From Mesorhizobium terrae (GTDB lineage: Bacteria; Pseudomonadota; Alphaproteobacteria; Rhizobiales; Rhizobiaceae), in assembly GCF_008727715.1 (NCBI RefSeq), contig NZ_CP044218.1, positions 744,001 through 808,000 of the forward strand: a stretch of 64,000 nt of DNA, written 5' to 3'. Positions within the stretch are counted from its first letter, which is position 1, and each line of letters begins with the position of its first letter. Positions 1-59,101 of this stretch are shown here, piece after piece. The position numbers were made by a program, and so were the translations under genes. Below the pieces are notes generated by a model that made no database searches, had not been told where the DNA came from, and was given only the letters and a program-made list of their open reading frames with translations.

Positions 1-363
1 TTCGACAGCCTCCGGTGCGCGGAAAGCGCTGGCGTGCGCCTTGACCAGCAATGTTTCGCCTTCGATTGGTGCCACTTCGGCGCAGATCGCCGTCAGCGGA
101 TCGTCCTTGCTGGAAAATGCCGATTTGCCGTTGCCATCGAGCGGATGGAATGGGCGCTCCTGCGTATCGAGATCAACGACATAGGCCCAATGAAAGAGCG
201 GCACGCCGTTCGCCCGTGCCGCCGCCTGCAGCCGCTGCACATTGGCGAGCAAGTCGGAAAACCCCTCGACCAGATAGCGGCTGTCCTTGCGGTGTTCTTC
301 CTGCAGGTCGATGAAAATGGCGGCCGCCGCACCACGGGGGATAGAAACAGGCGCCTTCATCAT
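1..363 (-). CDS. Isochorismatase-family cysteine hydrolase, partial (C-terminus outside window)
   Basis: The visible 121 residues begin with MMKAPVSIPRG and run off the left edge. They fit the N-terminal half of the isochorismatase / nicotinamidase-like hydrolase fold: a beta strand ending in FIDLQ (Asp19, the position of the family catalytic Asp) and a later VKAHASAF segment whose Lys108 matches the family catalytic Lys. The nucleophilic Cys would lie beyond the window, so activity cannot be judged. The start ATG overlaps the stop of the upstream M24 gene as ATGA, so the two are translationally coupled and probably act in one pathway. These enzymes cleave amide or enol-ether bonds in small metabolites; the substrate is unknown. 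A second in-frame ATG follows immediately. Confidence 0.75.
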   Translation of the reverse strand, partial: MMKAPVSIPRGAAAAIFIDLQEEHRKDSRYLVEGFSDLLANVQRLQAAARANGVPLFHWAYVVDLDTQERPFHPLDGNGKSAFSSKDDPLTAICAEVAPIEGETLLVKAHASAFRAPEAVE

Positions 364-1664
364 GCATGCCCTTCTAGGAATTCATCCTCATAGGGAAAGC
401 GCGAAAGCAATTCCGTCCCCGTTTCGGTGATCAAAACCTCGTCCTCCAGCTTAACGCCCTCGCGCCCGCCCTTCTCGCCGATATAGCTTTCCACGGAAAC
501 CACCATGCCAGGCTGCATGATGCCGTCGCGACCATAGGTTTCGTAGTCCATGGAATGGGCAATGAAAGGCGTTTCGCCGTGCATGCCCACCCCGTGCATG
601 ACGGAAGTGTAGCGTTGGTCGACAAAACGGTCGGGAATTTTCCATGCCTTTTCCGCGATCTCACGGAACGCCATGCCTGGCTTCACAATCGAAATGTTGT
701 GCTGCACCTGGTCGTAGGCCATGCCGTAAAGCATCTTCTGATAGTCGCTCGGCTTGCCTGGACCGCAGCGGAAGGTGCGGGAGAAATCCGAATAATAGCC
801 ATAACAGCCGATCGTATCGGTATCGAGCGCCACCAGTTCGCCAGGCCGCACCTTGCGACCGCTCGCTTCGTTGAACCATGGATTGGTGCGCTGGCCAGAA
901 GTCAAAAGCCGCGTCTCGATGAACTCGCCGCCTTGCCGGATCACCTCGTGATACATGATGGCGAAGAGTTCGTTCTCGGCGACGCCTGGCTTGATTGCTT
1001 CTCGCACCGCCGCCACCGCGGACTCTGCGCCAGCCATCGAAGCGACGAGACATTTCACTTCCTGCGGCGTCTTTATCGCGCGCACGGCCAGTATCTCGCC
1101 CTGGCAATCCTTCACGTCGCAGCCGCGTTTTTGCAGCGCCAGCGCTTGCAGGTGGCTGCAGCGGTCCAGCCCAAGCTTCATCGAGCCGCCGCCATGGGTC
1201 TTCAAGAGATCAGCGATTTCGTCGGCGAAAGGCCCGGCCGTCTCGTCGTCTCGGCCGGAGACCGAAGACCACACCAGTTTCGAAGGCCTGGCCTCGTCGA
1301 CTGTGTCGAGCACCATGGAGACATGGTAGCTCTGTGGATACTCGAACAGCACGATCGGCCCTTCGGTGGGGATGAAGAAGTAGCGTGTCGAATTGCGCAG
1401 GAAATAGCCGAACATGTTGCGTGAGCCGGTGGCGTAGCGCTGGTTGTAGGGATCGAACAAAACTACGGCGCCATAGCCTGTCTCGCGCATCCAACTGCGC
1501 AGCCGCTCAAGCCGTTCTTTTCTCAGCGCAACTGCGTCAATGAAGGAAGGCTCAGTGTCGGAAAGCCACATGCCGCCGGCAGGATCTGCTGTCGCCGGGT
1601 GGCGCATACGATCCCTGAAATCGACGTCTTCGGTGCTGTCGGGGTTAAAAACCACAATGCTCAT
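360..1664 (-). CDS. M24-family metalloenzyme, DddP-like (pita-bread fold)
   Basis: A 434-aa protein with a creatinase-like N-terminal domain and a C-terminal M24 catalytic domain. Metal ligands are visible: Asp281, Asp283, Asp293, His357, Glu392 and Glu407. The stretches GGEFIETR, TNPWF and FSRTF resemble, from memory, the DMSP lyase DddP more than ordinary Xaa-Pro peptidases. DddP has an Asp six residues after the metal-binding His (its catalytic base), whereas here that position is Gly363, so DMSP lyase activity is doubtful. The start was set at ATG 1664 because AGGAGG lies a few bases upstream; an ATG 11 codons earlier has no such site. It lies between a GlxA-type regulator and an isochorismatase-like gene, suggesting an inducible catabolic operon for a small methylated or amide compound. 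The exact reaction is unknown. Confidence 0.8.
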   Translation of the reverse strand: MSIVVFNPDSTEDVDFRDRMRHPATADPAGGMWLSDTEPSFIDAVALRKERLERLRSWMRETGYGAVVLFDPYNQRYATGSRNMFGYFLRNSTRYFFIPTEGPIVLFEYPQSYHVSMVLDTVDEARPSKLVWSSVSGRDDETAGPFADEIADLLKTHGGGSMKLGLDRCSHLQALALQKRGCDVKDCQGEILAVRAIKTPQEVKCLVASMAGAESAVAAVREAIKPGVAENELFAIMYHEVIRQGGEFIETRLLTSGQRTNPWFNEASGRKVRPGELVALDTDTIGCYGYYSDFSRTFRCGPGKPSDYQKMLYGMAYDQVQHNISIVKPGMAFREIAEKAWKIPDRFVDQRYTSVMHGVGMHGETPFIAHSMDYETYGRDGIMQPGMVVSVESYIGEKGGREGVKLEDEVLITETGTELLSRFPYEDEFLEGHA

Positions 1665-8596: not shown

Positions 8597-8613
8597 AGCG
8601 AGAGGACCGCCTC

Positions 8614-34022: not shown

Positions 34023-35332
34023 CATCGCTGCGACGCTCGGCGCTCATTTGGATTTCCATCCTGCTGACTGGGGTCGGCCTGATCGCATTCGCCGTGTCTT
34101 ACGAAATGGCCCGCCGTGAGGCCGACGATTTTCTCGACGGCCAGTTGCGTCAGATCGCGCTGAATGCTGGCGAAGGCATTTCGGACACGACGGCCTCACC
34201 TGGCTCTCATGATCGAGAAGACGAATTCGTCATCGAGATTTGGTCGCTCGCGGGGGAATTGGTCCGTAAAACCCCGTTCGTTCCGGAGATCCCGCGTATC
34301 GACCGTCCTGGATATGCCACCATCGAGGCCCGGGGGGAAGCCTGGCGCGTCTATCTCGCGCGCGATGCCCAGCGGTCGGTGCAAGTCGCTCAACGCGTCA
34401 GGGTGCGGCAGGAAATGGCGGAACTTGCCGGGCTCCAGGCCGGCGTGCCGATCCTCATTCTCATGCCGTTGACGTGGCTGTTGTTCAGTTGGTTGCTCGG
34501 GCGGTTGACGGGACGTCTGCAACAACTCGCAGAAGCCATTGCCAAACGTAGCCTCGACAGTCGTGATCCCGTGCCGGCCGCCGAGGTGCCGGCTGAGGTT
34601 CTGCCGCTTGTCCAAGGAATGAATGTGCTGACCGGGCGCCTGCAGGATGCGCTCGACAAACAGAAGCGCTTCGTCGCGGATGCCGCGCACGAACTGCGCA
34701 CGCCACTGGCGGCCTTGCAGATTCAGCTCGACAATTTGAGCACGACGACACACCAAATGGCAGCGATCGGCGAACTTCATTCCGGGCTGGACCGCGCCCG
34801 GAAACTGGTTGAGCAGTTGCTGCGCCTTGCCCGCACCGAAGACGCGTCCGGCGCCCAGACTTGGGAAATGATCGACCTTTCCGCGTTCATCACGCAATGT
34901 GTCGCGGACTTCATCCCCTTCGCCGAGGAAAAGGTGATCGATCTCGGTATGGTCAAAGCCGACCCAACGACAATATCGGGCTCACGCGCCGAACTTGCAT
35001 TGCTGTTCGGCAATTTGATCGACAATGCGATCCGCTACACATCTCCTGGTGGTTCGGTCGATGTGTCCGTGATCCGCACGGCTTCTGGTTTTTCGGTAGA
35101 AGTGGCCGATACAGGCTGCGGTGTGGCCGAAGCCGACATCCCCCGGCTGTTCGACCGCTTTTTTCGCGCCGCCCCGCCCGATGTCGATGGCAGCGGGCTT
35201 GGTCTTTCGATCGCTGCGGCTGTCGCAAGGCGTCATGCTCTGTCCGTCGACATCGCAAACCGGAAAGATACCAACGGACTGGTTGTGCGTGTCAGCAAAA
35301 AGACGAGCGAAGCGGGTCCCGCTCATTCCTAG
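34019..35332 (+). CDS. Sensor histidine kinase (QseC/PmrB-like)
   Basis: A 437-aa membrane kinase: helix 1 at about 9-28, a periplasmic loop of ~110 residues, helix 2 at about 142-162, HAMP (163-215), dimerisation/phosphoacceptor domain with His224 in DAAHELRTPLA, and a HATPase domain with N box NLIDNAIRY, G1 VADTGCGV and G2 SGLGLSIA. It phosphorylates the regulator encoded upstream (ATGA overlap). The periplasmic loop is short and has several Asp/Glu, as in sensors of cations or cationic peptides, but no ligand can be assigned. Confidence 0.9.
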   Translation: MTSLRRSALIWISILLTGVGLIAFAVSYEMARREADDFLDGQLRQIALNAGEGISDTTASPGSHDREDEFVIEIWSLAGELVRKTPFVPEIPRIDRPGYATIEARGEAWRVYLARDAQRSVQVAQRVRVRQEMAELAGLQAGVPILILMPLTWLLFSWLLGRLTGRLQQLAEAIAKRSLDSRDPVPAAEVPAEVLPLVQGMNVLTGRLQDALDKQKRFVADAAHELRTPLAALQIQLDNLSTTTHQMAAIGELHSGLDRARKLVEQLLRLARTEDASGAQTWEMIDLSAFITQCVADFIPFAEEKVIDLGMVKADPTTISGSRAELALLFGNLIDNAIRYTSPGGSVDVSVIRTASGFSVEVADTGCGVAEADIPRLFDRFFRAAPPDVDGSGLGLSIAAAVARRHALSVDIANRKDTNGLVVRVSKKTSEAGPAHS

Positions 35333-35674
35333 GTCTCTAGCACTATAGCGCTGTTCTTCGCCGCGCGGCGAATAGCTGCCCCGCCGCAGAACGCCAGGGT
35401 GCCGCTGCGAGCGTCACAGTCTCTCGATCGAAATCCCGAACGCGGTGGCGACGGGGGCTGATCGCGCGCGTCGGCCACGAGCTCGGCGAAATCGCGCTCA
35501 CTTACCCCTAAGTCTGAATCAATAGGCCTTCGCTGGTCGATCGCGGGCAGACGGCTTTCCCGCCGCGCAATACTTGGGGGCGGCGGTCTCAAGCCGGAAT
35601 CTGCAGATCGACCGGTCGCGGCATTGTTTGCCGCGACCGTCAGCGACCCCGACTTAGCTTTCGCAAGGAGAATT
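35333..35674. promoter_or_regulatory. Gap between sensor kinase and PepSY gene
   Basis: About 340 bp with no supported gene on either strand. It should contain the promoter of the PepSY gene; no clear -35/-10 pair or palindrome was identified. Confidence 0.4.
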
Positions 35675-35677
35675 ATG

Positions 35678-36007
35678 ATGAACACATGGAATGGATCGAA
35701 ACTTGCTGCTGCGACGGCCATCGCCTTCTCGCTCATCGCAGGTCCCGCTGCCGCCGAAGAGAATGCGTCCGACAAGGCGCAGATCATGTCCTCGGCCAAG
35801 ATTTCGATAGCCGAAGCCATCGCCGCCGCCGAGAAGGAAACCGGCGGGAAAGCTGTCGAAACCGACATAAGGAACAGGGACGGCAACGCGCACTTCGAAA
35901 TCACCATCCAGAAAGGCATGGAACGACAGGAAGTTCTCGTCGACGGTCAGACCGGGCAGGTCGTGAAAACCGTCGCGAACGACGGCGACGAAAACGACGA
36001 AGGCTGA
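35678..36007 (+). CDS. Periplasmic PepSY-domain protein
   Basis: A 109-aa protein with a signal peptide (KLAAATAIAFSLIAGPAAA) and one PepSY domain: KISIAEAIAAAEKETGGKAVETDI then FEITIQKGMERQEVLVDGQTGQVV. The tail is acidic (DGDENDEG). AAGGAG lies 7 bp before ATG 35678; ATG 35675 is an alternative. PepSY proteins of this size are often beside QseBC- or PhoPQ-like systems and are thought to modulate the sensor or periplasmic proteases. Its stop is followed by a strong terminator. Confidence 0.82.
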   Translation: MNTWNGSKLAAATAIAFSLIAGPAAAEENASDKAQIMSSAKISIAEAIAAAEKETGGKAVETDIRNRDGNAHFEITIQKGMERQEVLVDGQTGQVVKTVANDGDENDEG

Positions 36008-36034
36008 TCAAACCAAGGAGAATGACTTGACCCG

Positions 36035-36064
36035 GCGCGGCCAGGAGACTGGTCGCGCTTTTTT
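36035..36064 (+). terminator. Rho-independent terminator after PepSY gene
   Basis: Arms GCGCGGCCAG (36035-36044) and CTGGTCGCGC (36049-36058) form a 10-bp stem with one G-U pair and a GAGA loop, followed by six T (36059-36064). It ends the two-component/PepSY unit. A decayed version lies at the start of the other DUF347 leader near 13910. Confidence 0.85.
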
Positions 36065-36228
36065 GTGGGACACGACAACAAACGCCGTCAATCAGTGCCA
36101 CGGCAACAATCAAGTCGGGCAAGCTCACTCCCTCCTAAGTGTCTCGTGGTACCGCTTGCTTGATCCGCTCGGCCACGGAGCAAGCGCCCCGGTACAGCAG
36201 GTACCGAAGCCGACACCAGAAGAACGAT
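36065..36228 (+). promoter_or_regulatory. Structured DUF347-type leader, copy B
   Basis: Homologous to 13930-14102. It keeps GCTTGC (36154-36159) with GCAAGC (36180-36185) and a second stem CGGTAC (36190-36195) with GTACCG (36201-36206). The second stem differs in sequence from the other copy yet pairs fully. It now precedes a DUF347 remnant and, by translational coupling, the PAP2 gene. Confidence 0.6.
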
Positions 36229-36402
36229 ATGCCCACCATCAGCCTGACCCTGGCGTTCTTGATCGCCTATGTCCTGATCCGTCTGGTTGGAGCCTCGATC
36301 GGCGACTTCCTCGCCAAACCTGTCATCGCGGGCGGACCTGGCCAGGTGATGTCTCCGTCCCTTCCTTCAGCGGTCGCATATGAGCGTAGCGGAGAACAAT
36401 GA
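36229..36402 (+). pseudogene. Internally deleted DUF347 gene (57-codon frame)
   Basis: After the conserved leader the frame starts MPTISLTLAFLIAYVLIRL and continues VGASIGDFLAKPVIAGG, which corresponds to about residues 190-220 of the 262-aa DUF347 protein at 14103-14891 (SPILAFWIAYILTRP, VGASIGDFLAKPVIAGG). The first ~185 residues are missing and the tail is altered. The stop overlaps the PAP2 start (ATGA). It could still be made as a one-helix peptide, serving as a leader that couples translation to PAP2; it cannot do what the full protein does. Confidence 0.75.
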
Positions 36403-37334
36403 CGATGCCTTTGACGGAAGATCTGACCATCATTGTGTCGCTCGTGATGGCGGCCCTCGCAATGGCCTACCTCGTTGCCTTGCGCTCTATCGATGCCCTG
36501 GCGAACGCGGCTGCTCGGATTATTGAAGCCGATCGTTCCACCGTCTCCAGGTTGTCTCGACGCATTAAAGCTTGGCTGCGTGCAAAACGTCCGCGTCTGT
36601 ATGGATATCTCGCCCGCCGGCTCGATCCGCGCGTCTTCTTGGGCTTGCCTTTGACGCTGACTGTACTTGCCGCGCTCTATATCGCGGCTATCTTCGGCGG
36701 ATTGGTCGAAGGCGTGCTTGAAAGCGACGGCGTCGTGCGCTTCGATCAAACGGTCAATACCGCACTTACACCCTGGCGTATCTCGCCACTGATCGATGTG
36801 TTTCGCTGGGTGACCATGCTCGGTGATGGACCAGTCATCATCACCATCGCGATTGTGTTGACAGCAATTCTGTCAATTACGCTGCGTTCCGCCTTCATTG
36901 TCCCTTTGTGGGTAGTGCTGGTCAGTGCGCAGGCGACAACTTGGTTGGGTAAACAGATAGTTGCGCGCCCCAGGCCTGAGTTTATCCAGGGGGTCGTCGA
37001 GACTTCATCGTCCTTTCCAAGCGGTCACGCCACCGCCATTACGGCGCTGTTCGGCTTCCTGGCCTATGCGTTCGCTCGCGATCTGCAGTCTCTCCGCAAA
37101 CGGTTCGAGATCGTCTTCTGGACGGCTGTGCTGATCCTCGCGATCGACGTAAGTCGCGTCTTCTTATCGGTCCACTACCTATCCGACGTTCTCGCCGGCA
37201 ACCTCGTTGGCTGCTTTTGGCTGCTTGTGGGCTTCGCTCTCACCGAGTGGAGGCGAGCTCGCAAGCAAGGTGTGTTTGGACAGCACGCTGCCATCAAGAA
37301 AGTCGCGGCTCAAGACGGTGCCCCCCGATCATGA
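36399..37334 (+). CDS. PAP2-family membrane phosphatase
   Basis: A 311-aa membrane protein with an N-terminal helix, a basic cytosolic stretch (about 45-75) and five further helices. All three phosphatase motifs are present: KQIVARPRP, SSFPSGHA and SRVFLSVHYLSDVLAG, with catalytic His in PSGH and in the last motif. PAP2 proteins dephosphorylate lipid phosphates such as phosphatidate, undecaprenyl diphosphate or lipid A. The extended basic N-terminus is unusual. GGAG lies just before ATG 36399, which also overlaps the remnant upstream. The two-component system and PepSY gene nearby suggest envelope-lipid remodelling as its role. Confidence 0.87.
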   Translation: MTMPLTEDLTIIVSLVMAALAMAYLVALRSIDALANAAARIIEADRSTVSRLSRRIKAWLRAKRPRLYGYLARRLDPRVFLGLPLTLTVLAALYIAAIFGGLVEGVLESDGVVRFDQTVNTALTPWRISPLIDVFRWVTMLGDGPVIITIAIVLTAILSITLRSAFIVPLWVVLVSAQATTWLGKQIVARPRPEFIQGVVETSSSFPSGHATAITALFGFLAYAFARDLQSLRKRFEIVFWTAVLILAIDVSRVFLSVHYLSDVLAGNLVGCFWLLVGFALTEWRRARKQGVFGQHAAIKKVAAQDGAPRS

Positions 37335-37531
37335 CCGAGTGCGATCGAAACGAACGATGGACGCTTGAACGAAAGACGGATTTCGACAATGCGCGCGCCC
37401 GGGCGAACCCATCAAGCGATTGGCAATCCACCGTTGAGGCCCTCGGCAAAATTGAAGCGCGCAGCGTTTGGACAAGTCTCGCGGTGGTGGCCACCCTGCT
37501 TATCGTTGCCCTGGCTATCGCCGCGCTGTAA
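37331..37531 (+). CDS. Small single-pass membrane protein
   Basis: A 66-aa protein starting in an ATGA overlap with PAP2. A charged N-terminal part of ~45 residues (ERWTLERKTDFDNARARANP) is followed by one C-terminal helix (VWTSLAVVATLLIVALAIAAL). There is no separate ribosome site, so it depends on coupling to PAP2. Family unknown; it may be an accessory subunit of the phosphatase. Confidence 0.5.
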   Translation: MTECDRNERWTLERKTDFDNARARANPSSDWQSTVEALGKIEARSVWTSLAVVATLLIVALAIAAL

Positions 37532-38465
37532 CTCCAGCCTCAAAATGATCGCATGGTCGGACGTACAGGCAACGATCTCCGGCGCGGCGCCGGTAAACCT
37601 CGCCAGTGCCGTGCTCCTCAAGCCAGGTCCTACGTTGCCTTCATCGGACATGATCTTTTGGCCTTGCACCATCTCGGTGAGCGGCGCGTGGGACTGACCA
37701 CTGCGGTCGGCCGCCTTTCTTAGCCACACATTCACCTATACGCTTGGGTTCGACTTCCTGGCGAGCGGCGCAATTCGCATACTCGTCTACTCCTCAGTCG
37801 ACATGGAACCGCGGTGGTGATCGCGTCGGCGCAGGCACATTCTGGTTAGGGTTGGAGCAGTGGACAGCGGCATCCGTTTGGTCGAGCTTGGGATGCGTTA
37901 AGGGCCGATGGCGGTGCCATCATGAGCTACGCCGTGGCAATCGCGCTCTCGGATCACGTTCTATCGTCGCCAATGTTAGCTGGCTTACCACGGCCCCACT
38001 TGGCGGCCGGACAACGTCCGGCGCGCCTTCGCGAATCCGCGATCGGTTGCAACGAAGCGCCCCAGCATCGGAACGATGAGTTTCCGCAGGCGCCACAGGC
38101 TCGCCACAAGAGATTCGAACAGCGCGACTATTGACACCGGAGATGTCCGCTTTTGGGAAACAATTTGGACCGTACGAATGACCGACATAAGGGCGAAAGC
38201 AGAGCCGCGGCTACCTCGAGCCCGATGAAACTGGCGCCAAGCACGACCGCGCGGCGCGCAGTGGCAGCGCGGCTCAAGGGCGACGACGGCGTTGAAGGTG
38301 ACGCGGCGCAGGCCGTCGAAGTCGTCGAGGCGAGCTTTCACAAGCGGCTCAGCAGGTAACCGCTGAGCCCGCTCTCCCGAACTACGGTCTGGTCACTCGG
38401 CAAGTGAGGAAATCAACCACTGAAAAGGCTTGAGGGTCGCGCCGGCTCTCGAGATGATTGCTGGT
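37532..38465. other. Decayed stretch of about 930 bp
   Basis: No intact gene on either strand. The only recognisable content is the DUF2274 relic at 38020-38125. The rest shows short frames without family motifs, biased codon use or ribosome sites. It separates the envelope-stress cluster from the protease gene. Confidence 0.5.
38020..38125 (-). pseudogene. DUF2274 relic (trb-cluster terminal gene)
   Basis: The minus strand reads SLVASLWRLRKLIVPML then GRFVATDRGFAKARR, matching the end of the intact DUF2274 protein at 46915-47139 (PARLIAPMLEKFIATDRGF). The N-terminal half is not recognisable. Since DUF2274 genes close trb conjugation clusters, this is probably debris of another conjugative element. 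Confidence 0.6.
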
Positions 38466-41261
38466 TCAAATAGCCCTCGTTGGATTTCGGTGTCGGCCGC
38501 GCACCGCGTGCGCTGTTGGGGCCAAGGGTTTGTTCGACGCCTCGAACAGTCTGGCCAGTTTGTTTGCAATGGGAGTGCCAATGCCGGTGCACGGGTCTGG
38601 GCCGATGCGGGCGCGGTAGTAGCCGTTGTCGCCCTTGGTGATGTCGTTGAAGCAGGTCTGGTTGAGCCAGAGCTTCGGCGTCACCATGCCGAGTTTGCGC
38701 CCGAAGGCCGCGAACAGCCCGGCATAAAGCGGCGCCACGGCGCTGGTGCCGCCAATCACCTCCTGCTGGCCGTGCACGAAGACATTGTAGCCCGTATAGG
38801 GATCGGCATTGGCGGAGACGTCGGGCACCATGCGGCCCGGCCCGTGCGGCGCCCCGGCCTGCCAGGCCGGCATGGGCTGGAACAGTTCCGAGAAGCCACC
38901 ACCGGTGCCGGAACCTCTCGGGTTGCCGGGGTCGTCGTTCCAGACGGTTTCCTCCGCATTGGCGCCGTGCGGCTTCATGGTGCCGCCGCAACCCACGGAG
39001 AATGGGCTCGAAGAAGGCAGATCGACATTGGCCGGGTCCGCGCCGCCGTCTGAGGAATCATTGTCGCCCGATGCGGCGAAGACGATCATGCCCGCCTTGG
39101 CCGCCGCCTCGGCCGCCGCATTCAGCCTGCCCGGGTAGTCGACGCCGGACGCCGTGGCCGCCGCCCTCCAGTTGGCCTCGTCGGAACCCCACGAGATCGA
39201 GCAGACATCGCAGCCGTCGGCCGCGGCGGCAGTGATGGCGGTCGCCATCGCATTCCAGTCGGTGGCATCGGCCCAGTAGACGCGGATGCTCGCAGCTTCG
39301 CCTGTAGCCACGGAATAGGCAGCGGCGGCAACTTGGATGTCGAGCGCGACCTCGCGGTCGGGATCGGAGGCCTGGTTGCCTGAATGTTTGTTCGGGTCGT
39401 TGCGGCCGGGGCCGACCGGTACGTCGATGATGGTCGGCGCGGGCAGGCCGGTCGAGCGGAAATAGGTGTCCATGTCCTTCTGCACCCAGCCGCCGCCGAG
39501 CTCGATGATGGCGATAACACCGCCACCGACGAGCCCTGTCGGCCACGAGTAGGCCTTGCACAGATCAGGCACGCTCCATGGTTCGGCGCCGGCGGCGGCT
39601 GGACGAAAGGCGCCAGCGCCACCGCCCGGCAACTTGAAATAAGGCCGGACGACGTTGGGCACCTCGCGCATCAGAGCCGCCCTCGCAAGAAGGCTTGCAC
39701 GGCGCACGGAGACGGCCTGGTCGTACATGACTGCCAGGTCGGCTTTCATGGCCGTTCGCGAGCCGCCGTCGAGATAGATCATGTGGCCGGAAGGGTAGTT
39801 CCTGATGGTCAGGTTGCCGCGCACCTTGACGTCCGCGAGCGGCATGGCGTCCAGCGTCAGCCGGGTCTGGAAGAAGGGCGTCACCGAATCGTAATAGCCG
39901 TTTGCCGAGAGCACCAGCAGGCTCGGATTGGCGGCCATGGTGGCGGCGAGGTCGCCCGCCGTATAGAGCGTCGGGTTGCCCTGACCGTCAGGCTTCTGCA
40001 CCGCGCCCGTCGGGTCGGTGTGGCTGAAATCCCAGAACTGGAACGCCTGGTCGTTGAGGTCGACGAAGTTCGAGGTGGCGGTAAACTTCAGATCGTTGTT
40101 GAGATAGCTGTTCCACATGGTGGTGTAGACGCCGCTCACCGCCACCATGGTGGGGTCGTTCATGCCGCCGTCCGGCGACACGATGGCCGCGATCCCTGTG
40201 TCTATACCCGTCACCCGCCCGTCATAGGCGCCCAGCGCCACGCCCTGGTCGCGCAGCAGTTCGATCAGGAAAGCGGAATGGCCGAGCCGGTCGGCCGCCT
40301 CGACATTCAGCCTCCAGGCGTCGAGCATGCCGGCGGGAAGGCCTAGATAGCGCCTCAACGTCTCCACAGCCGCAGAGTCCGCCTTGGGAAAAGCCTGCAG
40401 CGCCTGGGTGTAGGGACCCTGCGCGAACTGCGTTACGGTTTCCATGAATGAAGCGAGGTCCGGCGGCTGCGGCTCGATGCCGGTCTTCTTGTGAAACCAC
40501 GCGTCGGCGGCAAACGTAGGCATCAGTCCGGCCGCGTTGGAGAAATTGGCGGGATAGTCGAGCACACTGGACTGCAGCGTGATGCCGTTGAGGTCGATGC
40601 CATCCTCGTGCAGTAGCCAGGCAAGCACGCAACTGCGGGTTGTGCCGTAGGATTCGCCGAACAGAAACCGCGGCGAGTTCCAGCGGTTGAAGGCGCTCAG
40701 ATAACGCTTGATGAACTGCTTGATTGAGACGGCGTCCTGGTCGACGCCCCAGAAGTCGCGGTTCTTGAACGGTGCGATCGCCGCGGAATAGCCGGTGCCC
40801 ACCGGGTTTATGTAGACGAGGTCGCTGCGGTCGATCAGGCTGTCGGGATTGTCCTCCATGGCGTAGGGCGGAGGCGGCGTGAAGCCCGGCATGCTGGTTC
40901 TGATGCGCCTGGGCGCGAAGGAGCCGAGCAGCAGGAACACCGACGACGAGCCAGGCCCGCCATTGTAGAAGAATGTCACCGGACGGGTGGTGGCATTCAT
41001 ACCGTCCGCCGTGAAGGCCACGTAGAAGAACTTTGCGGCGGGCTTCGAGCTCGACGGATCGACGGTGACGAGATGACCGGCAATGGCGGTATAGGGAACG
41101 GCAATCCCGTTCACCATGGCCACGTGGTGGGTGATTGCGGCGTTCTCGGTCGCGTCTGCAAGCGCGTCATCCGGCCCGGCCCCGTAGGCGGTGATGTCGA
41201 GGAACGGCTGATCTGGCTCAGGCTGGCCAATGCCCAAGCCGTTGTTGATCGTCTTCGCCAT
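38466..41261 (-). CDS. Two-domain protease: S10 serine carboxypeptidase fused to S53 sedolisin
   Basis: A 931-aa protein. ATG 41261 has GGAGG 7-8 bp upstream. Residues ~1-525 are an S10 carboxypeptidase: FFYNGGPGSSS (99-107), nucleophile Ser204 in FGESYG, Asp458 in NGYYDSV and His493 in PSGHM. Residues ~545-905 are an S53 sedolisin/kumamolisin catalytic domain: Glu637 and Asp641 (REVALD), oxyanion Asp733 (ASGDND) and Ser840 in GGTSAVAP, plus the C-terminal calcium site (FNDITKGDNG). Both catalytic sets are complete. The usual sedolisin pro-domain is missing; the S10 domain takes its place. No signal peptide is visible, which is odd since both families normally work outside the cytosol at acid pH. 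An endo- plus exo-peptidase in one chain could degrade proteins stepwise. Confidence 0.85.
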   Translation of the reverse strand: MAKTINNGLGIGQPEPDQPFLDITAYGAGPDDALADATENAAITHHVAMVNGIAVPYTAIAGHLVTVDPSSSKPAAKFFYVAFTADGMNATTRPVTFFYNGGPGSSSVFLLLGSFAPRRIRTSMPGFTPPPPYAMEDNPDSLIDRSDLVYINPVGTGYSAAIAPFKNRDFWGVDQDAVSIKQFIKRYLSAFNRWNSPRFLFGESYGTTRSCVLAWLLHEDGIDLNGITLQSSVLDYPANFSNAAGLMPTFAADAWFHKKTGIEPQPPDLASFMETVTQFAQGPYTQALQAFPKADSAAVETLRRYLGLPAGMLDAWRLNVEAADRLGHSAFLIELLRDQGVALGAYDGRVTGIDTGIAAIVSPDGGMNDPTMVAVSGVYTTMWNSYLNNDLKFTATSNFVDLNDQAFQFWDFSHTDPTGAVQKPDGQGNPTLYTAGDLAATMAANPSLLVLSANGYYDSVTPFFQTRLTLDAMPLADVKVRGNLTIRNYPSGHMIYLDGGSRTAMKADLAVMYDQAVSVRRASLLARAALMREVPNVVRPYFKLPGGGAGAFRPAAAGAEPWSVPDLCKAYSWPTGLVGGGVIAIIELGGGWVQKDMDTYFRSTGLPAPTIIDVPVGPGRNDPNKHSGNQASDPDREVALDIQVAAAAYSVATGEAASIRVYWADATDWNAMATAITAAAADGCDVCSISWGSDEANWRAAATASGVDYPGRLNAAAEAAAKAGMIVFAASGDNDSSDGGADPANVDLPSSSPFSVGCGGTMKPHGANAEETVWNDDPGNPRGSGTGGGFSELFQPMPAWQAGAPHGPGRMVPDVSANADPYTGYNVFVHGQQEVIGGTSAVAPLYAGLFAAFGRKLGMVTPKLWLNQTCFNDITKGDNGYYRARIGPDPCTGIGTPIANKLARLFEASNKPLAPTAHAVRGRHRNPTRAI

Positions 41262-41631
41262 CGCCGGCCTCCAGAACCTCGAGTTCACATCCGCCGACAC
41301 CGCTCGGCTGCCCCTCCCCCAGGCCAATGTCCTTCCGGCCAAATTTGTTAAATTCTTTTTCTATACTTCCACAATTTATTGAAACTGACGCAATACTCTA
41401 CGCTTGTTTAGAAAGACCGACAAGTCTTGAACTCGGAAGTGGCCCAGTCAGTTCGACCCCACGTTTGCCAAGGAGCACGGGGCGCCCACCAAGCGAAGCG
41501 TGAATTTGAACACCTACGACGGTTCGGTTCATTCCAGGGCGGCTCATCATAAACGCATTCGCGAATATGAGATTGCCTTGGTTGTCAGCCTTCAACGGCC
41601 CTGTCGATGCATGTTTGGCTAGGAGGCAAAA
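41262..41631. other. Gap upstream of protease gene
   Basis: 370 bp with an AT-rich segment near 41340-41400 (for example TTAAATTCTTTTTCTATA) that is likely to hold the promoter of the minus-strand protease gene. No gene can be supported. Confidence 0.4.
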
Positions 41632-41772
41632 ATGGAACAGCTTCACAAGCTGCGGGGCATTTCCGACGAGGAGTCGCTGAAAACTGTCACCGACAAGCGC
41701 GCCGCCCAGCACCGGAAATCAGTACCGACCATCTTCGCGAGGCGCAGTGGGAAAGGTACGACCAACCTTTGA
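41632..41772 (+). CDS. Small ORF of 46 codons with strong ribosome site
   Basis: ATG 41632 is preceded at ideal spacing by AGGAGG. The peptide starts MEQLHKLRGISDEESLKTV and ends RRSGKGTTNL; it is hydrophilic and basic, without signal or membrane helix. Third codon positions are mostly G or C, as in real genes here. No family recognised. The ~340 bp after it (to 42112) hold nothing supported. Confidence 0.4.
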   Translation: MEQLHKLRGISDEESLKTVTDKRAAQHRKSVPTIFARRSGKGTTNL

Positions 41773-42112
41773 TCCCCGGCTCGCCATGGCTGAAGTCTGC
41801 TTATGAGGAGTGCCAAAGGCACCTCGAATGTTGAAATGAAGGCGCAAAGCCGGCATGTGCAACTCAACGCTCCAGTTGGGGCTTGAATTCACCCTCTAAC
41901 TAAACCTGCAAAAAATCGTATGGTGCGCGGGTTGCGATAGCCTGGAGGATAGCAGGCAAAATGGAGAGCCAATCCACGGACGGCAACTGGTGAGCTCGCC
42001 GAGGCCGAGGATTTCTTTGTTCACCTGAGCCTGGAGGCTGGTCATCCAGGACAGCTCAAGAAATTGGGGCAATTCCCAGGGCCTGGCGCGGCGTTTCCGA
42101 TCCGCCGCACCG

Positions 42113-43513
42113 TCAGGCGAGAGCCCACTGCGGGTCTGCGGCGGCAAGTTTCTCAGCTTCCAACCGCCTCCAAAGGTCTCGCCACGATAGGTCCCGGACG
42201 AAACCGCTCATGCCTCCGCACGCTTCGGTCAGGGCAATGTTCCCCAGACGCTCGAGTATAGCTCCAATGCTTGTGGTACCAGCAGCCTTGAATAGATCGA
42301 ACAGTTCCTCATTTCGTTCGATGACGCGATGTCCCCAGGCACCCGGCACATCATCCGTGGCAAGCGAATGCTGGAGGTCGGCGTCAATACCCGCCGCCTC
42401 GCTCGCGCGGGAGACAACATACCGTATCAGCGGGTAGTAGATTGGCTGGCGGCTGCCTCCGAGCACGCGCACACCGGGAAGGATGGCCAACACCAGAAAC
42501 GCAAGAACCATGTTGGGGATGAGGCTGCGGTTCAACAACCCTCCGATGATTTCCGAAGCCGTGAAACGAACCACGGCTGCGCCACCGGCATGATGGACCA
42601 AATCCTCTCCCGACAGCCGAAGCGGCATCCGCTTTCCGTTTTCATAGAACCAGAAGAAGTCTGTCCCGCGCGCGAGCCAACCAGCCCAGGGCCCGGCAGC
42701 CAAATGATCGATTCCCTCCAGAATTCCCGATGCGACCTTTGGATTTCCCAGCAGACGCCTATGCAGCCAGGAAGTTTCGTCGGACAGGTGGTCGACGACC
42801 AGATCGGCGACATCCTCGTCATCGATCTGGAGAAAAGCACAATTGTTGCCGAACATTTTCGGCCAAAGAGCAATGTTTGCGGCCTTGATCGCACGTGCCG
42901 GTTTTTCGAACTGCGTCGGTGGAAGAAGATCACGGAGTTGTGCAAGCGCCTCGCTGGATGCCTCCGGCTCTACCGGTACAAGCTCGAACCGATAGGGCCC
43001 GAGTGCCGTGAGCAGGCCATAGCCGATCATCCGGCTTCGGCTGAGGCCAAAGATGTTGACCGCCTTTCCATCGACCGTTAGCCACCCCGGTCCCTTACGA
43101 GAACTTTCGACAAGGCTCACCGTCGAAACCGCATAGGAAACATAGGTCGAGCACCCATGCGCAGCGAGCCCAAGCAGACTGAAGGCATGTGTGTAACAGG
43201 CTTCCGGCTCAAGTATGAGGAGCAAGTGCGGGCCGGTCTGCAAGACGCGGCGATTTTCAAAATCCCGACAGATTTGAGCTACCGTTTCATCTGGCAGTCG
43301 ATTGCGAATTGCCGCCTTGCGGATGACGTGGAGGAGCTTGTTGAAAGCGACAACCCGGCAGTCCGGCAGCGCTTTCGAAACAGGCGGGTCGAAAAGACGA
43401 CAGGCATAATCGCGAACCGGCCGGGAGAAAAAAGGTTGCATCCACGGATATAGCACGGCCAGCGCCCGAAGGACCGCCTGTTTCCCCTCAGCGTTGTTTG
43501 CCAGACGGTCCAC
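42113..43513 (-). CDS. Hypothetical protein of 466 aa, no family recognised
   Basis: A long intact frame with normal codon use. The protein is mainly alpha-helical and soluble-looking. A conserved-looking block is VLQTGPHLLLILEPEACY followed by SLLGLAAHG (about residues 90-120), and there is a possible hydrophobic segment NMVLAFLVLAILPGVRVLGG (about 335-355). No Walker, Rossmann, zinc or protease motif was found. It is downstream of the AraC regulator at 43637-44524 in the same direction (123 bp apart), which suggests regulated expression, and it shares the island with a divergent SAM methyltransferase. Possible roles include a step in small-molecule synthesis; this is a guess from context only. 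Confidence 0.7.
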   Translation of the reverse strand: MDRLANNAEGKQAVLRALAVLYPWMQPFFSRPVRDYACRLFDPPVSKALPDCRVVAFNKLLHVIRKAAIRNRLPDETVAQICRDFENRRVLQTGPHLLLILEPEACYTHAFSLLGLAAHGCSTYVSYAVSTVSLVESSRKGPGWLTVDGKAVNIFGLSRSRMIGYGLLTALGPYRFELVPVEPEASSEALAQLRDLLPPTQFEKPARAIKAANIALWPKMFGNNCAFLQIDDEDVADLVVDHLSDETSWLHRRLLGNPKVASGILEGIDHLAAGPWAGWLARGTDFFWFYENGKRMPLRLSGEDLVHHAGGAAVVRFTASEIIGGLLNRSLIPNMVLAFLVLAILPGVRVLGGSRQPIYYPLIRYVVSRASEAAGIDADLQHSLATDDVPGAWGHRVIERNEELFDLFKAAGTTSIGAILERLGNIALTEACGGMSGFVRDLSWRDLWRRLEAEKLAAADPQWALA

Positions 43514-43636
43514 CTCTCAACTTGTCCCTCATCGATGTTCCGCACTCACCAATGGATATGCCGTGCCCCGTCGTTTTCTGCGTTCAATATCGTAACGGGA
43601 TTTGCAATTCCTTGCGCCAAACCGCTTCGCCAGAAG

Positions 43637-44524
43637 CTAGAGCCGGCATTGGCGGCGGAAATCGGTTGGCGTGGTTCCGAACGCCCGCTTGAAAGCTGTC
43701 GTAAAGTGGCTGGAACTGCCGAAGCCGCACTCCATCGCGATTTCGGTCAATGACCGTCCGCTGCTGCGAAGCAGATCGCAAGATTTCTCCAGCCGGCGTT
43801 TCGCCCTGAATGCGTACGGCGTTATGCCGGTCGACTGCTTGAATGCCCGCCAGAGGTGGAAACGGCTAAGCCCTATCTCTCTTGCAAGATCGGGCAACGC
43901 CCACGCTTTGTCCAAGGTTTCCAGAACCTCCAGCACCTGCTTCAGGTCGAATGGCGACAAACCGCCCTTTGCCAGTTCGTGGGGCGCGCCATTCGCCCTG
44001 ACCATCCGCCCGAGCAGTTGTATAGCCTGGGACTCCACCATGGCCAGGCCGAGAGGATCGGGCTGCCTGAGCTCGATGGCGATCCGCTGCAGCGCCAGCT
44101 CCACGATGCTGTCTCGAAACCCTATCGCGGGCGGCAGGTCTGCCAGACAATGGCGCACCGTTTCGCCAAACGTCTCCTCGGCGAACTGTCGTTCGACCGA
44201 TACGAGAAGGTAGGACGCGGTCGCGTCGCCCTCGTCCCACCCGCTCCATCTCGTGCCGGCAGGAAGGCAGATCAACGAGCCGGCGCGCCGCGGCGAGAAG
44301 GAAATGCGGCGCCCGTCGATGAAATCCTCACCACGGAACGCTGCCCCCCTGAGGTTCAGGATGAATACATGGGCGGAGCAGGCGAGGTCTGTTTCCTGCC
44401 TCTCCAGGCCGGTTCGTTTGATCAAGTCCGCGCGCACGCGTCCCCAGCTCTGATACTGATGGACCAGGGTCTGGCACCGACACCGCCGGATGGTGCACGG
44501 ATCACCGCAAAACACTTCTCCCAC
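43637..44524 (-). CDS. AraC-family transcriptional regulator
   Basis: A 295-aa protein with an N-terminal cupin-like effector domain (about 40-170; contains SLICLPAGTRWSGW) and a C-terminal pair of HTH motifs (about 195-293; LPDLAREIGLSRFHLWRAFK and EIAMECGFGSSSHFTTAFKRAFG). The fold is complete and ends in the usual PTDFRRQ. It lies upstream of the orphan 466-aa gene and divergent from the methyltransferase across a 269-bp intergenic region (44525-44793) that probably holds both promoters. The N-terminal Met is followed by a Cys-rich stretch that may not be translated; a later start is possible. Confidence 0.87.
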   Translation of the reverse strand: MGEVFCGDPCTIRRCRCQTLVHQYQSWGRVRADLIKRTGLERQETDLACSAHVFILNLRGAAFRGEDFIDGRRISFSPRRAGSLICLPAGTRWSGWDEGDATASYLLVSVERQFAEETFGETVRHCLADLPPAIGFRDSIVELALQRIAIELRQPDPLGLAMVESQAIQLLGRMVRANGAPHELAKGGLSPFDLKQVLEVLETLDKAWALPDLAREIGLSRFHLWRAFKQSTGITPYAFRAKRRLEKSCDLLRSSGRSLTEIAMECGFGSSSHFTTAFKRAFGTTPTDFRRQCRL

Positions 44525-44793
44525 AGGAAAATACTCCCGCTTAAGTGGCAGCGTATTCCTGCGTCTCTACGAACCCTGAGTTATGACTTCATCCAGAAAT
44601 AATTCATGGTTGGTGAAAGATGTGACTTTTATGAAAAAAAATCATTCCACTGAAAGCGATCAATCCCGCGCCAGCCTATTGGCGACTTCGACCTATACTC
44701 GACCCAGGTGAAACACTGCTTCGTTGATCATGAAGTTTCCCTCCGTCCTGTTGCGGCATCTCACCGAACGAGCGACTGTGGGAGGCATCTTGC

Positions 44794-47141: not shown

Positions 47142-48293
47142 TCACTCCGTGTAGGGTTCGAGGACAAGATCGCGGGTCACGACGACGCGAACGGGGAAGC
47201 CAGGGCGAATGGTGAGCGTCGGTGGAACCTGCAATTGGCTGCGCACGATCTGCTGTCCAGCGTCGTTGATGGTCTCTTGCATGCCACGCCGGATGGCCGC
47301 GACCAGACGGCCGTCCTCGCTGACAGCCAGTTCGGTGCCGACCGCGAGCAAGGTTGAGAGCCCGGCGGCCTTGGCAAGGTCCCACCAATGATGGTCAACG
47401 CCATCCTGGAGACCGGCATAGCCCTGTGCGTCGGCGCCAGGCTGACGCTCGAGCACGACCGATCGGCCGTTCGGGAATATCAGGCGATTCCAGACCAAAA
47501 GGATCCTGCGTTGCCCGAACTGTGTGCCGTTGTCGTATTGGCCGACCATGCGTGCGCCCTGCGGAACGAGCAGGGACCGACCCGTCAAGCTGTCGTAGAC
47601 GTTCTCTGTCACCTGCGCCGTGATCTGGCCGGGAAGGTCGGAGCGAATACCGGTTATGAGCGCAGCCGGGATGACCGCGCCTGCCTGAAGCACGAAAGGC
47701 GACGCTGGTTGCGTGACGCGATCCGCCGACGTGGTGCGTCGGTCGACGGGCGCGTCGAGGAAGGCCAGTTGCCTGTCCTGGATTGTCTGTTGACCCCGCA
47801 GACCGGCCGGATCGGGACCGCCGAGGCTCGGTGGAAGCGCGCCCGCCGGCCCCGCAGTCGCAACGCCAGGAGATGCCTGGAAGAAGATGCGGCTGGTGCG
47901 GGCTGCTTCCTCGTCCTGGCGGCGGCGTTGTTCCGCCTCGTCCACCGCCGGCGCCGTGATGACTGGCGGCGTCGCCGGCTGCCCCTTGTTCTGCGCCTCG
48001 AGGATCGGCCGGCCGAGGTCGCCGGGCAGCGGCGGGCCAAGCACCGGACCGGTGTAATCCCGCGGCAGGCCGGCCAGACCATCGGCGGGCTGTCTGTTGG
48101 TGGTCGAATAAAGCTCCTCGCCGGCATCTCCCGACATCGGCGTCCGCAGCGCGTAGATCAATGCACCGCCAAGGCCGAGCGAGGCGACGAGAGCAACGCT
48201 GGCGAGCGCCTTGCGCGACAGGCGGGTGACGCGCGGCGGCTCGGCTCGGAGCCGCATCGCCGAAGCAGCGCCGGCTTCTTTCTTCTCACTCAT
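47142..48293 (-). CDS. trbI: Type IV secretion protein TrbI (VirB10-like)
   Basis: A 383-aa protein: a short cytosolic N-terminus, one membrane helix (about 29-49, ALASVALVASLGLGGALIYAL), a Pro/Gln-rich periplasmic linker (about 90-170) and a VirB10/TrbI C-terminal domain (about 200-380) with LQAGAVIPAALITGI, GARMVGQYD and the final FPVRVVVTRDLVL. It spans the envelope and joins the inner-membrane motor to the outer-membrane pore of the mating channel. ATGA overlap with trbG. Confidence 0.93.
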   Translation of the reverse strand: MSEKKEAGAASAMRLRAEPPRVTRLSRKALASVALVASLGLGGALIYALRTPMSGDAGEELYSTTNRQPADGLAGLPRDYTGPVLGPPLPGDLGRPILEAQNKGQPATPPVITAPAVDEAEQRRRQDEEAARTSRIFFQASPGVATAGPAGALPPSLGGPDPAGLRGQQTIQDRQLAFLDAPVDRRTTSADRVTQPASPFVLQAGAVIPAALITGIRSDLPGQITAQVTENVYDSLTGRSLLVPQGARMVGQYDNGTQFGQRRILLVWNRLIFPNGRSVVLERQPGADAQGYAGLQDGVDHHWWDLAKAAGLSTLLAVGTELAVSEDGRLVAAIRRGMQETINDAGQQIVRSQLQVPPTLTIRPGFPVRVVVTRDLVLEPYTE

Positions 48294-49294
48294 GACGGCC
48301 TCCCATCGGTGCGCCCGATCCTGACGGTCTGCTGTGTCCTGCCGCTGCCAAGGCGCAGTTCGGCAGCGCCGAAGAGCCGGTCGACGATCAGCAGGTTGCG
48401 GTGAATCCGGCAGTTGGCGATCTGCGCTTCCCCCTCGGGGCCGATCACGAAGATCGGCGGCATCTCGCCCTGCACGATGCCACGTGGAAACTCGACATAG
48501 ACGCGCCGGCCATCGTCATAGACCGCTACCGGCTTCCATGGCGGGTTGTCGCCGCTCAGCCCATAGCGATAGTTGCGAGCCGCCATAGCCTGGATGAGGG
48601 GCGTCGCAGCGGTACTGTCCTTGCTCCCCGGAACTCTCGGATAGGCCCAGGACACGGCCGGCATGTAAGATTTCTGGCCCGAGCGCAGTTCAAGCATGTA
48701 GGTCCGCCGATCCGTGGTGATGATCAGGTTGGTCGTGATATCGGGACGCGAGGGCTTCACCAGCACATGGACACGGCGGGTCATTCCGGAACCCGATTCC
48801 GTGTCGCCGATGATCCATCTGGCGGTGTCGCCCGCCGCGATCGGCCCCGCACCGGCCAGGCTTTCGCCCAGCTCGAGGGCGATGTCGGTGATCTGCCCTG
48901 GCGCGGCGTAAACCTGGTAGAGTGCACCTTCCGACCACGGATAGACTTGGATTGCATTGTAATAACCCTGGCGGCGGGGTTCGACGCGGGCTGCCGCATT
49001 GGCGTTTTCGACCCGTGCCGCGGGCGCGCCTGCCGCTGCACCACCCCGGGCGGGAGACCAGGCCGGGGGAACATGCAGGGGCTTCGGTCGATCATCGCTG
49101 ACGGACGTGGCAAGAACCGGCAAGGGCGGAACGTCGCGGTCATACAGGATCTGCGGCGGCTTCTGGGGCGTGGCACAGCCAACAAGCATTGCTGCCGAAA
49201 CCAGCAGGAACAGCAGGGCAGATCTCGAAAGAGCCGAGGCGAGGACGGGATGGCGTTGAGCATTTCGATCCTTGCGGACCAGCAACCGGTTCAT
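48290..49294 (-). CDS. trbG: Type IV secretion protein TrbG (VirB9-like), lipoprotein-type N-terminus
   Basis: A 334-aa protein. Residues 1-45 form a signal ending in LVGC, a lipobox, so it may be acylated at Cys. The VirB9/TrbG domain covers about 110-330, with VYPWSEGALYQVYAAPGQI and DITTNLIITTDRRTYML. It binds the TrbI-type protein in the outer-membrane core of the channel. The start was set at ATG 49294, overlapping the trbF stop (ATGA); a much longer frame upstream is only the shadow of trbF. Confidence 0.92.
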   Translation of the reverse strand: MNRLLVRKDRNAQRHPVLASALSRSALLFLLVSAAMLVGCATPQKPPQILYDRDVPPLPVLATSVSDDRPKPLHVPPAWSPARGGAAAGAPAARVENANAAARVEPRRQGYYNAIQVYPWSEGALYQVYAAPGQITDIALELGESLAGAGPIAAGDTARWIIGDTESGSGMTRRVHVLVKPSRPDITTNLIITTDRRTYMLELRSGQKSYMPAVSWAYPRVPGSKDSTAATPLIQAMAARNYRYGLSGDNPPWKPVAVYDDGRRVYVEFPRGIVQGEMPPIFVIGPEGEAQIANCRIHRNLLIVDRLFGAAELRLGSGRTQQTVRIGRTDGRPS

Positions 49295-49980
49295 TGGCTC
49301 ATCTCCCGCGACCACGAGATTGCGTTGACGTAGATGCCAAGCGGATTGGCCCGAAGCTGGTCTGCGTCGCGCGGCGGCTCGACAACGATGGTCAGGATCG
49401 CCGTCCACCGCTCGGTCGTGGAGAGCTGGCCGTTTTCGTATTGCCTTTCGGTCCAGGCGACGCGGAAGCTGTCCGGCGACGCGCGAATGACCGATGAGAC
49501 TTCGACGGAAATCTGCCGCTTGCCGAGCTTTGCGAACGGATCGTTGGCGCGGGCGTAGTCGTTGAGCGCGGCCGCACCCCGATCGCTCGTCCACTCATAG
49601 GCGCGAAGCCAGTTCTGGCGCACGATGACGGGATCGGCCGGGATCGCGCGAACCTGCTCGACGAAGCGAGCCAGATGCCACGCGACCTGCGGATCGGTTG
49701 GCCGGTAGCTCCCAGTCGCCGGCGCGATCGCCTGAGCCTGGCCGAGGACGTCCACCTGGACCACCCAGGGCACCACGGTTCCGCGCGCCGACTGCCACAC
49801 GAAGGCGGCGGCAAGGCCGGTGGAGAGGATCAGCGACCCGAATGCCATGTAGCGCCAGTTGCTGGCCTGGACGCGGGCCGAGCCGATGCGCTCATCCCAG
49901 ACCTGCGCGGCGCGCTGGTAGGGCGTTTCCGGCTGAGGGGTCTTTCCATAGTGGGTGGCGGGTCGCTTGAACGGGTTCAC
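49291..49980 (-). CDS. trbF: Type IV secretion protein TrbF (VirB8-like)
   Basis: A 229-aa protein with a cytosolic N-terminus (FKRPATHYGKTPQPETPYQR), one helix at about 47-64 and a periplasmic NTF2-like VirB8 domain (YEWTSDRGAAALNDY, SFRVAWTERQYENG). It is a core assembly factor of the conjugation channel. ATGA overlaps join it to trbL upstream and trbG downstream. Confidence 0.93.
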   Translation of the reverse strand: MNPFKRPATHYGKTPQPETPYQRAAQVWDERIGSARVQASNWRYMAFGSLILSTGLAAAFVWQSARGTVVPWVVQVDVLGQAQAIAPATGSYRPTDPQVAWHLARFVEQVRAIPADPVIVRQNWLRAYEWTSDRGAAALNDYARANDPFAKLGKRQISVEVSSVIRASPDSFRVAWTERQYENGQLSTTERWTAILTIVVEPPRDADQLRANPLGIYVNAISWSREMSQ

Positions 49981-51350: not shown

Positions 51351-51353
51351 GGA

Positions 51354-51638
51354 TCAGTGCCCCGTACCTGTGGTCTGCGGCTTTGGGTCTGTCCTGCCGA
51401 GAAAGCGGTCGCGGGTTTCGGCCCAGACGCGCAGGCATCCGGCATCGTCCGACGCTTTCTGTCCAAGGCGCTGGCAGCGGCGCTGGCCTTCACGCAGGGC
51501 GTTGTGATCGGACTGGATGACTGGCCTGGACGCCAGCGGGACTGGCTCCATGTTACCGGCCAGCCCGAGCGCCACCGCCGTGACGACGATGGCGGCCACC
51601 ACAATTGTGGCCGTTCGGGCAAGCATCCTGCGGTTCAT
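51354..51638 (-). CDS. trbK: Putative entry-exclusion protein TrbK (alternative type)
   Basis: A 94-aa protein with an N-terminal helix (ATIVVAAIVVTAVALGL) that is a signal anchor, and a periplasmic part with two Cys (RRCQRLGQ ... DAGCLRVW). The C-terminal CxRxWAETRDRFLG pattern matches the short TrbK-alt family in rhizobial trb operons. By analogy it would block redundant transfer between cells already carrying the element. The start at ATG 51638 was chosen over a frame start 12 codons upstream because it gives the family N-terminus. Confidence 0.8.
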   Translation of the reverse strand: MNRRMLARTATIVVAAIVVTAVALGLAGNMEPVPLASRPVIQSDHNALREGQRRCQRLGQKASDDAGCLRVWAETRDRFLGRTDPKPQTTGTGH

Positions 51639-51648
51639 AGAGCCGTCC

Positions 51649-54857: not shown

Positions 54858-54868
54858 CGGGACTGCCC

Positions 54869-56459: not shown

Positions 56460-56625
56460 TGCGGCCTCGTTTTCGACGGGGCCTCAACAGGTCGTTCCCC
56501 GATTGGGGATGACTAAAAGAGCCGCAAGGCGGCCAGGTTCAACAAGTTTCGATTGTCGTAGTGTCGTGGCGTGCAAATACAAAGGAACGGCGCTGTCGCC
56601 TCGGGGACGGGACAAGCGTGGAGGT

Positions 56626-57090: not shown

Positions 57091-57094
57091 CTGC

Positions 57095-59077: not shown

Positions 59078-59101
59078 CACGGTTCTCCTTGCTGATGAGG
59101 C

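Follow-up and report, generated by a model that had tools for sequence, protein, structure and literature searches.

What could bring two different peptidases together on a single bacterial chain? The question is raised by a gene in a 64,000-nucleotide stretch of the Mesorhizobium terrae genome (contig NZ_CP044218.1, positions 744,001 to 808,000 of the forward strand; hereafter the window), in which one open reading frame (ORF) joins an S10 serine carboxypeptidase to an S53 sedolisin. S10 enzymes are exopeptidases, and S53 enzymes are acid endopeptidases made with a pro-domain. An earlier note on this DNA, made from the letters alone, had described the fusion and offered two explanations for it: that the S10 half stands in place of a missing pro-domain as chaperone or inhibitor of the S53 half, or that the pair digests proteins in tandem. 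We find that the fusion is real and conserved, assembled from two known enzyme families, and that S10 and S53 form a conserved unit which occurs as neighbouring genes, as S10-S53 chains and as S53-S10 chains. The reading that we favour, if only slightly, is that the fusion is an acid-activated twin zymogen which may cut itself at Tyr541-Phe542 and digest proteins both internally and from the C-terminus.

The gene lies on the minus strand at 38466..41261, with its ATG at 41261, a stop that ends at 38466, and 931 codons plus the stop in a single frame. Direct reading placed the GGAGG reported by the earlier note, the ribosome-binding site, at 41268..41272, six bases ahead of the ATG, and found all catalytic residues where that note had put them, to which we add the strand. 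The S10 domain (39717..41219, residues ~15-515) carries the Ser-Asp-His unit of its family as Ser204 (40650-40652), Asp458 (39888-39890) and His493 (39783-39785). A linker (39579..39716, residues ~516-561) includes the proposed self-cleavage site Tyr541-Phe542 (39636..39641) and leads into a kumamolisin-type S53 domain (38538..39578, residues ~562-908), where the Ser-Glu-Asp triad and the oxyanion Asp of family S53 are present as Glu637 (39351-39353), Asp641 (39339-39341), Asp733 (39063-39065) and Ser840 (38742-38744). In Pfam, PF00450 matched residues 72-208 (E 6.5e-13, 49.3 bits vs a cut-off of 21.9) and PF00082 matched residues 660-853 (E 2e-8), while the pro-domain family PF09286 had no match in the protein and NCBIfam assigned no family to it. 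Sequence searches matched residues 525-905 to kumamolisin (1t1e, E 1.5e-63) and the N-terminal half to cathepsin A (E 2.2e-4). Structural alignments of the model gave the S10 half a cathepsin A fold with ~13-18% identity to cathepsin A and other solved S10 carboxypeptidases (6wia, 4mws, 1ysc); unlike these, the S10 of the fusion is joined to an S53 and has no signal-like N-terminus. The large N-terminal pro-domain usual in S53, which does not count towards the peptidase unit itself, is absent, only the end of its linker being kept, so that in comparison with pro-kumamolisin the chain lacks the pro-domain core and its linker is preceded by an S10 domain.

The layout is not peculiar to this assembly. 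Protein sets were drawn as the best 120 of 2514, of 7288 and of 7044 matches, and the first of these, with the window's own protein added, made a family set of 121: 88 full-length S10-S53 chains (the window's included), 18 partial chains, nine S53-S10 chains and six proteins with S10 only. The guess in the earlier note that similar fusions may exist in databases was thus correct, and its worry that an assembly or sequencing error had removed a stop between the domains is ruled out by the recurrence of the S10-S53 layout in many genomes. Ser204, His493, Glu637, Asp641, Asp733, Ser840 and Trp691 are invariant in the 88 full-length fusions and Asp458 is kept in 87. Near the C-terminus, Asp873 (87/88) and Asp889 (88/88), which we take from kumamolisin to be the calcium-site aspartates expected of an S53, are kept as well. 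Alignment A1 held 86 rows hand-picked from P0001-P0092, with P0009, P0016, P0058, P0059, P0062 and P0067 omitted. By the Nei-Gojobori method, the ratio of nonsynonymous to synonymous substitution rates (dN/dS) between the window and four relatives was 0.087-0.135 for the S10 half, 0.072-0.214 for the S53 half and 0.19-0.37 for the linker, and rose to 0.54-1.14 in a drifting 23-residue C-terminal tail; these figures are rough, several dS values being close to or over 1. Both halves of the fusion are under purifying selection. In the open-licence literature, judged on the openings of abstracts, as well as on listings, we recognised no publication on an S10-S53 chain or on a pair of such genes.

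The surroundings of related genes bear on what the two halves do together. A scan of named genomes gave 592 loci, of which the 80 that best matched the whole chain were kept, a choice that favours loci with both enzymes; five loci of a phylum survey and one plasmid locus completed a set of 86. An S53 was present in 84 of these, arranged as a pro-domain S53 followed by S10 on one strand in 71 loci, as the same two genes on opposite strands in two, and as S10 followed by a pro-domain-less S53 in 11 (one of which, L136, has a remnant of S10 only). The two loci without S53 are L053, at a contig edge, and L132, a 57% second copy. Loci L002-L011 hold S10-S53 chains, two of them (L005 and L009) frameshifted. 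Most of L012-L081, from Burkholderia, Paraburkholderia, Trinickia and others, hold a pro-domain S53 gene just upstream of an S10 gene; these have the same S10 subtype as the fusion (66-69% identity) beside an S53, but as separate genes, mostly in the order S53 then S10, and with an S53 that has its pro-domain. The S53-S10 chains (P0109, P0110, P0112, P0114-P0118 and P0094) resemble the fusion in carrying both enzymes per chain and reverse its order; all except P0094 keep the pro-domain, unlike the fusion.

For an unbiased view of the neighbourhood, two families were searched with the S10 half alone, which gave matches at an E of 1e-100 or less in 61 of 130 genomes of one family and 3 of 70 of the other. 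The test covered 93 of the 96 matches, leaving out G1086 and G1027 (the loci L126 and L128) and one 43% match in G1198, and its loci are not independent since the genomes are related. An S53 lay within 1.5 kb of 58 of the 59 S10s of at least 63% identity, in 56 cases upstream and on the same strand and in two on the opposite strand; the 59th had one ~1.9 kb away. The S10s of 54-62% identity (L216-L235) had no S53 match in their 3-kb flanks at any of 20 loci and look like close relatives of the paired S10 that work unpaired. Below 50% identity, an S53 stood within 1.5 kb in 8 of 14 loci. These eight (L237, L241, L243, L244 and L246-L249) belong to Burkholderia relatives and form a second pair, like the fusion in having S10 beside and ahead of S53 and unlike it in being separate genes, with an S10 of 40-43% identity. 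Their S53s are only 30-34% identical to the S53 of P0109 and give a weak pro-domain match in six of the eight; the two that were inspected have a signal-like start and a pro-domain-like region, and this second pair may be secreted. As a second, unlike S10 also stands beside an S53, the pairing arose more than once. The tandem digestion proposed in the earlier note thus gains indirect support from gene arrangement: the window's S10 subtype and S53 are neighbours or share one chain, in both orders, at nearly all loci examined, and the second S10 of the Burkholderia relatives has an S53 neighbour as well in 8 of 14 loci.

Phylogeny points in the same direction. In the S10 tree, the window's subtype (fusion, neighbour-gene, reverse-chain and S10-only rows) formed one clade against ordinary S10s, with a support of 100 in the Shimodaira-Hasegawa-like approximate likelihood ratio test; the row L101, although labelled as outgroup, is the protein of the window itself, the tree does not include the S10s of 54-62% identity that stand without a partner, and the program flagged a meeting of long branches within the outgroup. 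The S10-S53 fusions lay in one 59-row clade (support 97), together with P0094 and with nine S10-only rows, a number of which are truncated or frameshifted. Of the S53-S10 chains, P0109 and P0114 grouped within the clade that the neighbour-gene S10s form, and six more had positions outside it; because these chains scatter over the tree, the joining of S10 and S53 happened several times and in both orders.

The linker bears on how such a chain might be controlled. Residues 525-562 of the fusion align by phmmer to the end of the pro-domain and the linker of pro-kumamolisin (1t1e). The statement of the earlier note that the pro-domain is absent holds for the pro-domain core, with no PF09286 match, and fails for this remaining end. 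Tyr541-Phe542 lies opposite His171-Phe172 of 1t1e, which we take to be the first self-cleavage site of pro-kumamolisin, so that the fusion has Tyr-Phe where kumamolisin has His-Phe. The linkers of neighbour-gene pro-S53s mostly read RPHF, those of the fusions RPYF, and fusions and stand-alone S53s share mostly PYF, the Tyr of the motif being present in 82 of the 88 full-length fusions and in all 99 hand-picked rows of alignment A2. The S53 half was modelled with a mean predicted local distance difference test score of 76.3. Its alignment to mature kumamolisin (1gt9) began at model residue 32 and covered 326 residues, that to intact pro-kumamolisin began at residue 1 and covered 353, and those to pro-Tk-subtilisin (2z2z), whose pro-domain is presumably cut at 69/70, and to pro-TPP1 (3edy) began at residue 11 (chain residue 535). 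In the model the linker segment appears to track the path of uncleaved pro-linkers, the exact register being inferred from alignment end points. The earlier note had also called for a structure prediction of the full chain. The alignment of the full-length model to 1t1e (model 217..907, chain 106..545) does extend into the S10 domain; it gains 26 residues over the alignment to the mature enzyme, which may belong to S10, to the linker or to both.

Whether the S10 half replaces the pro-domain can be judged from S53s that lack one. The host genome has one copy of the fusion, without internal stops, a single PF00450 match and no PF09286 match, and supply of a pro-domain in trans is thereby ruled out. 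Beyond the fusions, the closest S53 relatives among the best 120 matches listed are predicted proteins mostly of 380-470 residues, which reach only ~20-100 residues ahead of the catalytic domain. None of the 99 rows of A2 matched PF09286 or PF00450, though a few carry the last part of S10; the rows left out of this alignment were mainly cut off before the motif, others without a stated reason. In P0094 the S10 comes after an S53 without a pro-domain; the other eight S53-S10 chains have one. On a plasmid of Rhizobium sp. AB2/73 (L136:2329-4358), S10 is cut down to about its last 38 residues, with two small ORFs upstream, and a 397-residue S53 ORF starts just ahead of the RPYF motif. A survey of the class with the stand-alone P0255 returned the window's fusion and three S53s of 47-50% identity, all three with a pro-domain match. 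The S53 half belongs to a pro-domain-less branch of S53, one that has lost its usual folding helper, rather than to the typical kumamolisins. A different chain of 1471 residues (P0062) carries three peptidase units, with S10 and a pro-domain-less S53 followed by a pro-domain and a second S53. Another predicted protein, P0119 (1502 residues), joins PF00450 and PF01019 in its Pfam list around a middle that resembles an out-of-frame S53, and probably represents a fusion gene whose frame has shifted so that it reads on into the next gene.

A careful S53 tree placed the pro-domain-less S53s, fused or not, in one clade (100/100) on a long stem (1.44), with pro-S53-S10 chains as the nearest pro-bearing rows (94/78). 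It used 70 of 156 rows: four S53-only rows with the look of truncated fusions were set aside, as were two duplicate outgroup rows and the second S53 of P0062, and the remainder was thinned. The rooting of this clade is weak because the stem is long: a quick tree put the fusions at its base and the careful tree put stand-alone proteins there. Approximately unbiased tests rejected neither a single clade of fusions (p 0.288) nor a single clade that unites the stand-alones with P0094 (p 0.259), and the fusion-first order of the quick tree was dropped.

Against this background, the idea that S10 is a surrogate pro-domain, which aids the folding of the pro-domain-less S53 and holds it inactive, and that this instead of joint digestion is the reason for the fusion, appears rather unlikely. 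The extension of the full-model alignment into S10 is in its favour, and to that extent the chaperone or inhibitor role put forward in the earlier note keeps a basis in the model. It is opposed by the closest stand-alone S53s, which lack pro-domain and S10 alike, by P0094, in which S10 comes behind the S53, by the near loss of S10 in L136, and by the S10 triad, whose conservation a mere chaperone would not need. Because the stand-alone S53s, P0094 and L136 do without a pro-domain, S10 need not replace one. A combined version, in which an S10 exopeptidase was co-opted as folding partner and inhibitor of S53 in the lineage without the sedolisin pro-domain, docking at the place of the pro-domain, holding the PYF linker in the S53 site and being released by acid as a second enzyme, and in which the stand-alone S53s later did without both, is in our judgment less probable still.

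In the twin-zymogen reading that we prefer, the S10 half would instead be a partner enzyme in fixed ratio rather than a necessary foldase. The chain would carry two serine peptidases of acid-active families with both active sites kept, and would be inert at cytoplasmic pH with its linker lying in the S53 active site. Acid, met once the chain is outside the cell or when the cell dies, would lead the S53 half to cut the linker at Tyr541-Phe542 and so free S10 and S53 in equal amounts, after which the S53 endopeptidase would open proteins and the S10 carboxypeptidase would trim the new C-termini. The pairing, the conservation, the linker motif and the modelled path are what we find here, and we infer from them the acid activation, cleavage, release and joint digestion. 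Division of labour of this kind has a parallel in fungi, with separate secreted eukaryotic enzymes in place of one chain: Aspergillus has a set of S53 plus S10 enzymes. Digestion of protein by fungi at acid pH with endo- and exopeptidases, S53 enzymes among these, is described in an excerpt of one paper (PMC4282482). An excerpt of another states that pro-kumamolisin cleaves its own pro-domain (PMC8004986).

Several observations weigh against the twin-zymogen reading. An earlier set of 39 ordinary S10 loci (27-44% identity, mostly alphaproteobacterial) had no S53 match in flanks of ~1.5 kb, which shows that S10 enzymes often work without an S53 partner; for ordinary S10 genes in general this does not hold, given the 8 of 14 S10s below 50% identity that do have a close S53. 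Confidence in the modelled linker was middling (block means of 76 and 58). Stand-alone S53s, which have hardly anything to remove, retain the PYF motif too, and the motif may therefore serve a structural role. The reading also needs contact with acid, yet the fusion appears to have no signal-like N-terminus. By a crude hydrophobicity test (highest Kyte-Doolittle mean of any 11-residue stretch among residues 1-40, threshold 1.9), the window's protein scored 0.62 and has no Sec- or Tat-type hydrophobic N-terminal signal, as the earlier note had said. Signal-like N-termini were found in none of 93 fusions, 106 S10-only proteins of the window's subtype and eight S53-S10 chains, in 2 of 89 stand-alone S53s and in 33 of 40 ordinary S10s; a signal-like stretch anywhere ahead of the pro-domain was present in 4 of 68 neighbour-gene pro-S53s. 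Finally, the fusion is no core function, being rare in even draws of genomes: 3 of 61 in the host genus (counting the host, and with a frameshift breaking one of the copies), 2 of 397 in the order, 1 of 385 in the class and 2 of 398 in the phylum.

This single-copy, patchy occurrence would also suit a specific processing enzyme, which performs endoproteolysis and then C-terminal trimming on one substrate, as Kex2 and Kex1 do on pro-hormones, rather than a general digestive enzyme. Across 12 fusion loci (two identical at the fusion), matching neighbour genes recurred between close relatives only, with no shared substrate gene beside the fusion and no neighbour that names a pathway, and we hold specific processing to be as doubtful as the co-opted folding partner, or a little more so. 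Some plant members of S10 act as acyltransferases or esterases. That the S10 half does so instead of acting as a peptidase is improbable: the 13-18% identity to solved carboxypeptidases in the structural alignments leaves room for it, but repeated pairing with an endopeptidase fits a peptidase best. Separate production of the S53 half from an internal start, a possibility raised in the earlier note, is the hardest to credit, for although codon 531 of the window is an ATG with GAGG upstream, among ten fusion genes examined (two of the other nine identical) that start occurs in the window alone, L003 having one elsewhere and eight none, and of the 88 fusions 3 have Met in alignment column 531 and 30 have a gap there.

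The surroundings of the window's gene are consistent with mobility. Conjugative type IV secretion genes (TrbI, CagX/TrbG, TrbL, TrbE-like, a TraG-type coupling protein and a DUF3363 protein) occupy 47145-60871 on the minus strand, ~6 kb from the fusion, and are probably part of an integrated conjugative element. The left flank (35300-38300) occurs in other genomes of the genus as short stretches only, the right flank (41500-44600) has matches of ~67-72% identity in many of them, and neither flank was matched in the other two fusion carriers of the genus (G012 and G058). The conjugation cluster and the patchy left flank fit transfer with accessory DNA. Phage records held no match to the fusion, and a phage origin is ruled out. 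In Mesorhizobium sp. CA14 (L002:1503-6937), the region upstream of the fusion encodes an ABC transporter, an HlyD-type protein and a Sel1-repeat protein, and Mesorhizobium sp. CA8 (L009) has ORFs matching those. These genes of CA14 are a possible export route; the other fusion loci in the comparison showed none at that position. The window also has two autotransporter-type ORFs (2984-5185 and 8362-13047), the second with passenger-associated repeats.

Taken together, the repeated pairing of an endopeptidase with an exopeptidase, as neighbours and as chains of both orders, is strong genetic evidence that the two work jointly. As members of the pro-domain-less clade retain the linker motif whether or not S10 is present, the need of an S53 for its pro-domain becomes testable by comparing natural variants, and chains that join the two enzymes could find use as compact degraders of protein that are active in acid.
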